In this document: one piece after another, positions 22,066-58,362 of the stretch | Layout of the letters: each line of letters begins with the position of its first letter | Position numbering within the stretch: the stretch's first letter is position 1 | DNA from: Acinetobacter guerrae | GTDB taxonomy: Bacteria > Pseudomonadota > Gammaproteobacteria > Pseudomonadales > Moraxellaceae | NCBI RefSeq assembly: GCF_009372255.1 | Contig: NZ_LXGN01000023.1 | Coordinates: forward strand, 1 to 64,000 | DNA length: 64,000 bases | Direction: 5' to 3' | Notes under the pieces: model-generated | Database searches by the model: none | What the model was told of the DNA's origin: nothing | The model's input: only the letters and a program-made list of their open reading frames with translations | Made by a program: the position numbers and the translations under genes

Positions 22066-22122
22066 AGTACACACAAGCCGAGAGTCTAGACTCTCGGCTC
22101 AAAAATTGCAACCGCAAAGTGA

Positions 22123-23903: not shown

Positions 23904-24001
23904 GTTTCTTAGTGTTTCGTACGTTTCGTATCGGAACGGTGTGCAGTTTAGCAAAACTCAGAAACGATGCAAGCGGTTTTTTTAAAAAAACCGCTAAAAA
24001 C

Positions 24002-37112: not shown

Positions 37113-38318
37113 TTAATCGGTTAACCCTGACTTATTATTGTTTGCCTGATATTGGTAATTCACCACTGTGGTATATAACCCACGCGCGCTATAGGTTTGA
37201 AACTTGACCGTATTTCCATAATACGCTCGAAGACGCTGTTTCACATTGTCTATAGCAATACCATGTCCTTCTCTGGTTTTTATTGTATCGTGACTATAGG
37301 GATTGGTAATGACTATACTGACTTGATTTTGCAATATTTCAACCAATACACCAATTTGACATTCCCCACCAATATTCTCAACTCCATGAAAAATACTATT
37401 TTCGAGTAAAGGCTGCAAGGTCAACAACGGAATTTGTATCATTTTAAGTTGTTGAACAGTATACGGAATTTTCCACTCTACATGAAATCGATCACCTAAT
37501 CGAATTTGTTCGATAAATAAATATTGTCGACAAAGTTCAATTTCATCATTCAGACTAACCAACTTAAGTTGCTGGAAACTGGCACGAAATAATTTGGACA
37601 AACTAATGAGCATGGTTTCGGCTTTATCTGGATCTATGCTAATTAAACTGACCACACTATTTAAGCTATTAAATAAAAAATGCGGATGGATACGCGCTTG
37701 CATCGCTTGTATTCGAGCATTAAGTTCACTGTATTGCTGCTTTAACCATTGATCACGCACATACATGTAACGTAAACAAAATGCTCCCAACAAAATGCCA
37801 TAACTTAAATGCATCTCCACACCCGCAAATAAAAGGTCGTGATTAAAGTGATGCAAACTGAAATAACTGCCCCAATGTTGCAGCACGTTAGCAATACAAG
37901 TGGTTGAAACCACAATAATTTGCAGAAGAATAAAACCAATTACTAAAGCAGTAACTTGATTGATTCGATTAAAAAAAACTTGAAAACGATCCAGTATCGC
38001 TGAAAAAGACAGTACTACCCAATTAATAAAAAATACGTACTGCAGTAACCGTAAGCCTTGTAATGCTTGCCACGAACCCGCCTCAGTCAATGCTAGCACC
38101 ATTGCCAGTACATTACTGGCGACCATCAACTCTAACAAATGTTGCCATTGACCAATTTTGCTAAAAAAATAGGAGTTGCTTGATGGCAGACTTGGTCGAG
38201 CTAAATCGTTTGGATTCTGGGCATCGGCAAGCCTTGAGGAATTTGTTATACTCTTTTTTATTTTTCGCTTTTTTTTATCGAGCCGACATGACCACATCTT
38301 CGAATCCCCCTCACTCAT
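37113..38318 (-). CDS. algZ: LytS/AlgZ-type sensor histidine kinase (start uncertain)
   Basis: His_kinase motif [19 protein letters not shown]; upstream of algR; ORF 5' end overlaps argH head-to-head. Confidence 0.88.
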
Positions 38319-39721
38319 CTGCCCAGAACCAGACCTCTGGTATGTGGGGCGGTCGCTTTAGTGAAGCGACAGATGCTTTTGTTGCTGAATTTACCGCATC
38401 TGTACAATTTGACCAACGTTTTTATAAGCAGGATATTGCGGGTTCAATTGCACATGCCACTATGTTAGCAAAAGTGGGTGTACTCACCGATGCCGAACGT
38501 GATGATATTATTCAGGGCTTAACTTCAATCAAATCTGAAATTGAAGCAGGTCAGTTTGAGTGGCGTATCGACTTAGAAGATGTACACATGAATATTGAGT
38601 CGCGTCTGACTCAACGTATTGGGATTACAGGTAAAAAACTCCATACAGGTCGTAGTCGCAACGATCAAGTCGCAACAGATATTCGTTTATATCTGCGTGA
38701 TGAAATTGACGATATTCTATCAATTTTGCAGCGCTTACAAAAAGGCCTACTCGGCTTGGCAGCAACAAACACTCAGACCATAATGCCAGGTTTCACCCAT
38801 TTACAAACGGCGCAGCCTGTGACTTTTGGTCATCATTTGTTGGCATGGTTTGAAATGCTGATCCGTGATACTGAGCGCTTGCAGGATTGCCGTAAACGTG
38901 TCAATCGCATGCCACTAGGTTCTGCGGCATTGGCGGGAACCACTTACCCGATTGATCGTGCTTATACTGCTGAACTTTTAGGTTTCGAAGCTGTTGCTGA
39001 AAACTCACTTGATGCAGTTTCTGATCGTGATTTTGCGATTGAATTTAACGCTGCGGCAGCGTTAATTATGATGCACTTATCGCGTATGTCTGAAGAATTA
39101 ATTTTATGGACTTCTGCTCAATTTAAATTTGTGAACATTCCAGATCGCTTCTGTACGGGCTCATCAATTATGCCGCAGAAAAAAAACCCAGATGTACCTG
39201 AATTGATTCGTGGTAAATCAGGTCGTGTTTTTGGTGACTTAATCAGTCTTTTGACCCTAATGAAAGGTCAACCATTGGCCTATAACAAAGATAATCAGGA
39301 AGATAAAGAACCTCTTTTTGATGCAATTGACACAGTCCGTGGTTCATTGATGGCTTTTGCAGACATGATTCCTGCACTGGTTCCAAATATCGAAATTATG
39401 CGTGAAGCTGCATTGCGTGGTTTTTCAACTGCCACTGATCTTGCAGATTATCTGGTAAAAAAAGGCGTGGCTTTCCGTGATGCCCATGAAATTGTGGGTA
39501 AAGCGGTGGCGTTAGGCGTACAGGAAGATAAAGACTTATCTGAACTGAGCCTTGAGCAACTTCAGCAATTCTCAGATTTAATTAGTGCCGATGTATTTGA
39601 TAAAGCATTAACGCTAGAAGCATCTGTGAATGCACGTGACCATATTGGCGGAACTTCTCCAAAACAGGTGACTGCTGCGATTGCACGTGCCGAAAAACGT
39701 CTTGAACAACTTTACGCTTAA
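38288..39721 (+). CDS. argH: Argininosuccinate lyase (start likely MTTSSNPP)
   Basis: [26 protein letters not shown] signature. Confidence 0.97.
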
Positions 39722-39730
39722 GGAAATCTC

Positions 39731-40006
39731 ATGAGCCGCCAAGTATTTTGTATTAAATATCAAAAAGAAATGGAAGGTCTGGATTTTCCACCTTTTCCTG
39801 GAGCCAAAGGTCAGGAGTTGTTTGAGCATGTTTCCAAGCAAGCCTGGCAAGAATGGTTGCAACACCAAACCACCTTGATTAATGAAAAACGCTTAAATGT
39901 GTTTGAGCCAGAAGCCAAAAAGTTTCTAGAACAACAGCGTGAAAAGTTTTTCAACAATGATGAAAGCGTAGAAAAAGCCGAAGGTTGGAAGCCTGAAGAA
40001 AATTAA
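39731..40006 (+). CDS. yggX: Probable Fe(2+)-trafficking protein YggX
   Basis: 91 aa; [56 protein letters not shown]. Confidence 0.96.
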
Positions 40007-40264
40007 AGCATCGCTTTAATTTTCTGTAAGACAAGGACGAAGTCCGCGTAGGCAAGCATAGGGGAAGTAAACCCTTGCGCAAGACGAAGGGCTATGCCTG
40101 TAGGGAGAAAATTAAAGCATCGCTTTAATTTTCTGCAAGACAAGGATGAAGTCCGCGTAGGCAAGCATATGGGAAGTGAACCCTTGCGCAAGACAAAGAG
40201 CTATGCTCGTAGGGAGAAATATTAAAGCATTGCTTTAGTTTTTTTCAATGCAAGGATGAAGTCC
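39998..40264. repeat. ~109-bp tandem repeat, two full units plus a truncated third
   Basis: Units starting gaaaattaaagcatcgctttaattttctg at 39998 and 40107; third degenerate copy from ~40216 ends after caaggatgaagtcc. Confidence 0.9.
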
Positions 40265-40310
40265 AAGAAATGTATAAAGTAGTCCACGTGGACTACTTTA
40301 TACATTTCTT
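40265..40310. repeat. Perfect 46-bp palindrome (23-bp arms, no spacer)
   Basis: aagaaatgtataaagtagtccac|gtggactactttatacatttctt, checked base by base. Confidence 0.95.
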
Positions 40311-40386
40311 ACATAGCGACATATAACATTACATAGCCTCACAAGACTCTGCATGATTCTTTCAATTTTTCTTAATATACTTATTC

Positions 40387-40473
40387 CATAGCAAGGCAAT
40401 AAGCATAACCCCAATGCAGCCTTACGATGTTTTCTTCCCAGATTTCTCCCCCCAAGAAATCTGGGATTTTTTT
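40387..40473 (+). ncRNA. Candidate small RNA ending in a strong intrinsic terminator
   Basis: Strong terminator with no upstream ORF; -10-like TATACT at 40376-40381; -35 weak; 5' end inferred. Confidence 0.4.
40436..40473 (+). terminator. Strong intrinsic terminator
   Basis: tcccagatttct-ccccccA-agaaatctggga, 12-bp perfect stem, 7-nt loop, T7 tract. Confidence 0.85.
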
Positions 40474-40637: not shown

Positions 40638-40671
40638 AAAAAAGACCTTGAATTATTTCAAGGTCTTTTTT
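40638..40671. terminator. Bidirectional intrinsic terminator downstream of phoU
   Basis: aaaaaagaccttgaa-ttat-ttcaaggtctttttt. Confidence 0.75.
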
Positions 40672-40693: not shown

Positions 40694-41416
40694 TTATCCA
40701 CGATGAACTTTTTCTTCAATTTCTTCAATTCGGGTATGACGTACATCCAGACCTTTCGCAATATAAATCACTTGTTCAGCAATATTACGGGCATGATCAC
40801 CAATACGCTCTAATGAACGTAATACCCACATTACATTAATCACACGGGAAATATGACGCGGATCTTCGATCATATAAGTCATCAAAGTCCGTGTTGCAGA
40901 CTGGTATTCACGATCAATATCTGCATCTGCAAGCAATACTTGTAACGCCTGCTCTGCATCCAAACGTGCAAAAGCATCCAGCGCATCATGAATCATCACC
41001 CGAACCTGATTACCAATATGACGTGTTTCCATATAACCACGCGGTGATCCACCCTCTTCACACAGATTTTGAGCAATTCGGGCAATTTTAGCAGCTTCAT
41101 CCCCAATACGTTCTAAATCTGTATTGGCTTTACTCATGGCAATCACCATACGCAAATCAATCGCAGCAGGATGTCGGCGCGCTAAAATTAAAGTTAAACC
41201 CTCATCAATATCACGCTCATATTGATTCACGGTATTATCTTTAAACTGAACATCGAGTGCCATGTTGACATCGGTATCCAATAAGGCATGAATTGCATTG
41301 GCAACTTGCTGTTCTACCAAGCCACCCATGGTCATAAATTTAGTGTTTACATCTTGCAAATCTTCATTGAATTGGGAAGAAATATGATGACTTAACACAG
41401 GATTACTTGGACTCAA
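40694..41416 (-). CDS. phoU: Phosphate transport/signalling regulator PhoU (start likely TTG)
   Basis: LSHHISSQFNEDLQDVNTKFMTMGGLVEQQV, IGDEAAKIAR, IGDHARNIAE; TTG at 41416 is preceded by GGGAGG. Confidence 0.93.
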   Translation of the reverse strand: MSPSNPVLSHHISSQFNEDLQDVNTKFMTMGGLVEQQVANAIHALLDTDVNMALDVQFKDNTVNQYERDIDEGLTLILARRHPAAIDLRMVIAMSKANTDLERIGDEAAKIARIAQNLCEEGGSPRGYMETRHIGNQVRVMIHDALDAFARLDAEQALQVLLADADIDREYQSATRTLMTYMIEDPRHISRVINVMWVLRSLERIGDHARNIAEQVIYIAKGLDVRHTRIEEIEEKVHRG

Positions 41417-58269: not shown

Positions 58270-58280
58270 GTTTAGACCTG

Positions 58281-58318
58281 AAATAAAAAACCAGTTGTTT
58301 CCAACTGGTTTTTTATTT
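58281..58318. terminator. Bidirectional intrinsic terminator
   Basis: aaataaaaaaccagttg-tttc-caactggttttttattt. Confidence 0.8.
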
Positions 58319-58362
58319 CAATATTGATCGTAAATCTAAAAAAAATGCGATTTTAAATAATT

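Follow-up and report, generated by a model that had tools for sequence, protein, structure and literature searches.

A perfect 46-bp palindrome in Acinetobacter guerrae as a probable extended hairpin at the argH-yggX intrinsic terminator site

The perfect 46-bp palindrome found downstream of yggX in Acinetobacter guerrae is best read as a lineage-specific, over-perfected and possibly weakened version of the yggX terminator. Comparison of the locus with its counterparts in related species makes it very likely that in this lineage a template switch during replication homogenised the arms of an existing argH-yggX intrinsic terminator and made them longer, and the hairpin most likely still serves as the end of the yggX transcript. 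On the best reading the palindrome is thus a neat case of a known process and not a new element. Its value lies in offering what appears to be a clean natural example of how template switching can rewrite a bacterial terminator in a single step, with sister species that keep the earlier state; it also suggests that long perfect intergenic palindromes should be compared with the terminators of relatives before they are read as operators or mobile elements.

The palindrome, its setting and the hairpins of the genome

The stretch of DNA that was analysed, referred to here as the window, comprises 64,000 nucleotides at the start of contig NZ_LXGN01000023.1, and its relevant features are collected in Table 1. 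The earlier note had described an exact inverted repeat between yggX and phoU, and both parts of that description were borne out: the two 23-base arms (AAGAAATGTATAAAGTAGTCCAC followed by GTGGACTACTTTATACATTTCTT) are 100% complementary with 0 nt between them, and the neighbouring genes were confirmed by Pfam. Loopless palindromes with 23-bp arms are expected from base composition 2e-9 times per 64 kb and 1e-7 times per 3.42-Mb genome, so that the repeat cannot be ascribed to chance. A single strand of it consists of a 21-bp stem and an ACGT tetraloop, folds with -29.9 kcal/mol (z -8.6) and places the hairpin 258 bp past the yggX stop codon in the direction of transcription. As ACGT is itself self-complementary, a property of 16 of the 256 tetraloops (1 in 16), the zero spacer is a chance outcome that says nothing more about the element. 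An Rfam scan of the locus gave nothing at gathering score, and its sub-threshold chance matches (sau-5971 and microRNA families) were dismissed as typical of any long hairpin.

Table 1. Features of the palindrome locus (coordinates of the window; a full stop denotes no strand).
Feature	Coordinates	Strand	Basis
Perfect 46-bp palindrome, extended hairpin at the argH-yggX intrinsic terminator site	40265..40310	.	
Outer left arm AAGAAATGTAT, derived, inverted copy of 40300-40310	40265..40275	+	2/11 vs 11/11 identity
Ancestral terminator core (AAAGTAGTCCACGTGGACTACTTT), common to S54 and Axc73	40276..40299	+	Alignment to L034 and L035
Outer right arm ATACATTTCTT, presumed template; relatives have the homologous ACGTTTCTT/ACGTTTATT	40300..40310	+	
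argH (argininosuccinate lyase), upstream, same direction	38297..39721	+	Pfam PF00206/PF14698 (Lyase_1/ASL_C2)
yggX (Fe(II) trafficking protein), with a transcript that would stop at the hairpin	39731..40006	+	Pfam PF04362 (Iron_traffic)
Two ~108-bp imperfect direct repeats, lying between yggX and the palindrome	40027..40242	+	
Conserved direct-repeat motif TTACA-N15-TTACA, ahead of the candidate sRNA promoter	40308..40336	+	
Candidate sRNA gene of about 90 nt, closed by an intrinsic terminator with a C-loop (40436-40473)	40384..40473	+	
Bidirectional terminator AAAAAAGACCTTGAA-TTAT-TTCAAGGTCTTTTTT, closing phoU on the - strand	40638..40671	.	
phoU, convergent neighbour	40694..41416	-	Pfam PF01895

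Two and a half copies of the ~108-bp repeats (AAATTAAAGCATCGCTTTAATTTT...GACAAGGATGAAGTCCGCGTAGGCAAGCAT...) lie between yggX and the palindrome (39997-40264), the third and partial copy running into the AAGTCC that marks the left edge of the latter. Partial copies of these repeats also occur at another place in the genome (C4:9882), and many other species have them at the corresponding locus.

Perfect hairpins are a regular feature of this genome. A 292-kb sample of it contained 36 perfect inverted repeats with arms of at least 12 bp and a loop of at most 10, and first-order Markov sequence matched to the sampled composition (4 x 228 kb) had none. The 23-bp arm of the palindrome is the longest in the sample, being followed by arms of 19, 18, 17 and 16 bp (the others span 12-19 bp overall), and many of the sampled hairpins carry A/T runs at their ends in the manner of bidirectional terminators; the palindrome is the tail of this distribution and not a separate class. 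Long hairpins also recur in the same intergenic region elsewhere in Acinetobacter, with 18+4+18 arrangements at two loci (L061 and L034). The counter-selection that the earlier note had invoked against long perfect palindromes concerns mainly much longer ones, and shorter hairpins, perfect or nearly so, are common in the genus.

Several further hairpins were observed alongside. The second-longest perfect hairpin of the window (58279-58320) has 19-bp arms around a 4-nt loop (TGAAATAAAAAACCAGTTG-TTTC-CAACTGGTTTTTTATTTCA) and is terminator-like, and two more loopless palindromes, each of 24 bp, lie at 23972-23995 and 22076-22099 (AGCGGTTTTTTTAAAAAAACCGCT and AGCCGAGAGTCTAGACTCTCGGCT). A Moraxellaceae MAG also carries, between yggX and phoU, a 38-bp loopless perfect palindrome (19+19; AAGAAAAAAGCCTTGGCAATTGCCAAGGCTTTTTTCTT; L095, 2601-2638), which is likely to be another perfected terminator.

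The site in relatives and the origin of the perfect arms

In relatives, the corresponding site lies between argH-yggX and a conserved promoter stretch that starts TTACATAG-NN-ACATATAA-N-ATTACATAGCCTCACAAGACT, and bidirectional terminators (e.g., AAAAAGAGAGCTG-TTTT-CAGCTCTCTTTTTACGTG) precede this same promoter in many species. Acinetobacter sp. S54, the nearest relative by YggX, has AAAAAGTAGTC-TTAGT-GACTACTTTTT at the site of the palindrome, and sp. WU_MDCI_Axc73 has AAAAGTAGT-CCCGTA-ACTACTTTT; both hairpins are of a plain, shorter and imperfect terminator type, and both have the core GTAGTC...GACTAC in common with the window. Among more distant species, stems followed by the conserved promoter region occupy the same position in A. 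courvalinii and A. vivianii (AAAAAGAGAGCTGTTTTCAGCTCTCTTTTTACGTG) and in A. calcoaceticus and A. lactucae (AAAAAGGCGGGTCTATATACATAGACCCGCCTTTTTTTACGTG). The stem is not universal among species, there being no recognisable one at the site in A. ihumii.

The comparison with Axc73 locates the change within the palindrome itself. Window and Axc73 agree at 162 of 170 positions downstream and at 44 of 60 upstream, and both have 11 bases between the common AAGTCC and the core AAAGTAGTCC, namely GCGCACCAATA in Axc73 and AAGAAATGTAT in the window. Those of the window are identical to Axc73 at only 2 of 11 positions and to the inverted right flank of the window (ATACATTTCTT) at 11 of 11, a match with a chance probability of 3.5e-7, and the replaced and replacing segments are equal in length (11 bp by 11 bp). 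The left arm even mirrors lineage-specific changes of the right arm that are absent from S54 and Axc73 (TTTATACA, as against TTTTTACG/TTTTACG in relatives). Since the right flank is homologous to that of the relatives, the copying would have run from the right arm, as template, to the left, the ancestral left arm being read from the sisters S54 and Axc73 and not from the exact lineage of the host. A recent origin, which had been one of the explanations proposed for the persistence of the palindrome, is supported by these results: the palindrome is lineage-specific, with an outer left arm newly copied, in inverted form, from the right flank.

The pattern is that of quasipalindrome correction, in that the sister hairpins are imperfect and all 11 of the 11 changed bases are an inverted copy. 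Having met the old hairpin, the polymerase would have folded back the nascent strand and copied the right flank into the left side before returning to its template, so that 11 bp were replaced by 11 bp. The resulting transcript would still form a very stable stem (21 bp, about -29 kcal/mol), which would serve to end the yggX mRNA or to protect it. In E. coli, quasipalindromes are made perfect by such template switching, in which the polymerase stalls, uses the nascent strand as a template and returns (PMC7202029), and template switches can likewise create perfect RNA stems in one step (PMC8794818). As at the thyA hotspot and in the lacZ QP reporters of E. coli (PMC7202029), an imperfect repeat would have become perfect through the rewriting of one arm, with no remote donor; there, however, the event was followed by mutation assay, whereas here it is inferred from species comparison, and the copied segment of the palindrome runs 11 bp beyond the old stem. 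The palindrome would share a perfect stem and a one-step origin with the RNA stems attributed to template switching (PMC8794818), although those are mainly microRNAs and rRNA and this one would be a bacterial terminator. At the same site in three further species (L061, L059 and L071), 4-5 extra pairs arise where a variable left flank mirrors a conserved ACGTG/ACGT right flank, which hints that the same process may recur in the same direction.

Probable terminator function and competing explanations

As a stable hairpin downstream of a gene, with homologous hairpins in relatives, the palindrome most probably belongs among the intrinsic terminators. It resembles bidirectional ones in its position after yggX, its hairpin shape, its 4-nt loop and its A-rich/T-rich outer parts, and differs from ordinary ones in the length of its stem (21 bp, theirs being about 8-18), in an interrupted T-tract and in the outcome of a consensus terminator scan, which calls nothing at the palindrome. 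The stem is much stronger than those of the relatives. The T-tract after the core is the interrupted TTTATACATTTCTT in the window, as compared with TTTTT in S54 and TTTT in Axc73, and the tail score is 2.45 as compared with 2.9-3.9 in relatives; given these two features and the silence of the scan, present-day termination may be weak. The earlier judgement that the palindrome is not an obvious terminator holds for the present sequence alone, which the consensus scan misses, but misleads in view of the plain terminator hairpin that relatives have at the exact site. Any yggX transcript that read through would enter the next unit, which has a strong terminator of its own at 40436-40473.

Three functional alternatives assign the perfect stem a role beyond termination. 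Perfect RNA stems of 21 bp, here of about -29 kcal/mol, are plausible RNase III substrates by their length, and the palindrome could be a double-stranded RNA hairpin selected for RNase III processing, or for stabilisation, of the yggX mRNA at its 3' end; its restriction to one lineage, together with a mutational mechanism that explains the stem without selection, renders this very improbable. Very improbable, too, is a newly acquired role of the perfected stem in this lineage, such as that of a double-stranded RNA cut by RNase III or of a protein-bound site coupling argH-yggX transcription to the neighbouring conserved sRNA promoter. The palindrome also lies ~70 bp upstream of a conserved promoter, its right end abutting the conserved TTACA-N15-TTACA motif, as might befit a large site bound by a dimeric protein that controls yggX or the sRNA promoter downstream. 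Such an operator, which the earlier note had raised as a possibility, would here be maintained by selection and is highly improbable: the palindrome is conserved in no relative, though the downstream motif is, the stems of relatives differ and show terminator features, and the genome has no second site.

The remaining alternatives concern the provenance of the sequence. The proposal that the palindrome is the trace of a mobile element, whether the end of an IS or MITE, a recombination site or a member of a palindromic repeat family, can draw on the adjoining 108-bp repeats, which show that repeats accumulate in this intergenic region, but it deserves almost no credence. An arm search with up to 3 mismatches, which took in 176 Acinetobacter genomes, found a single copy in the host genome, at the palindrome itself; the palindrome is absent from the 175 others, and searches of IMG/VR viral contigs, of plasmids and of phages gave nothing. 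The segment is equal in length to that of Axc73, so that there is no insertion, and neither the earlier suggestion of an element remnant nor membership among IS ends, MITEs or dispersed palindromic repeats is supported. The sole other place among the 176 genomes is a single-arm match in G166, apparently inside a coding gene, which was rejected as chance. An artefact of assembly or library preparation, in which an inverted chimeric read or a PCR template switch would mask an ordinary hairpin in the cell, is unlikely: the assembly is a 60-contig draft and the palindrome is private to it, but the palindrome sits deep within a 102,682-bp contig with both flanks collinear with relatives, and there is no length difference from Axc73 in the replaced segment. 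Moreover, common read lengths exceed the 46 bp of the palindrome, and inverted-chimera artefacts are normally a minority of reads.

A candidate small RNA gene behind the probable terminator

The region that follows the palindrome (40308-40473, + strand) was noted for an arrangement of its own, consisting of TTACA-N15-TTACA, a -10-like TATACT, a unit of ~90 nt and a terminator whose C-rich loop is conserved (CCCAGATTTCTCCCCCCAAGAAATCTGGGATTTTTTT). Of 80 Acinetobacter yggX loci examined, about 65 have a TTACA-like repeat promoter and a ~90-nt unit downstream of the terminator position, these units ending in a C-rich-loop hairpin and then 7-8 T. The candidate has no Rfam match, and nothing specific was found in the literature on an Acinetobacter sRNA between yggX and phoU; several A. 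baumannii sRNA papers say nothing of yggX or phoU in the text itself, although their supplementary tables may list the candidate. A stop signal with an sRNA gene behind it would be a genus-wide layout that has apparently not been studied so far. When 199 genomes of the family were searched with a strict pattern for the sRNA terminator, the 11 that matched were all Acinetobacter; the pattern misses the copy of the window itself and is too strict to gauge the spread of this terminator. Compensatory changes occur in 5 of the 8 pairs of the sRNA terminator across 39 aligned sequences, and the unit between yggX and phoU is probably a genus-wide small RNA gene.
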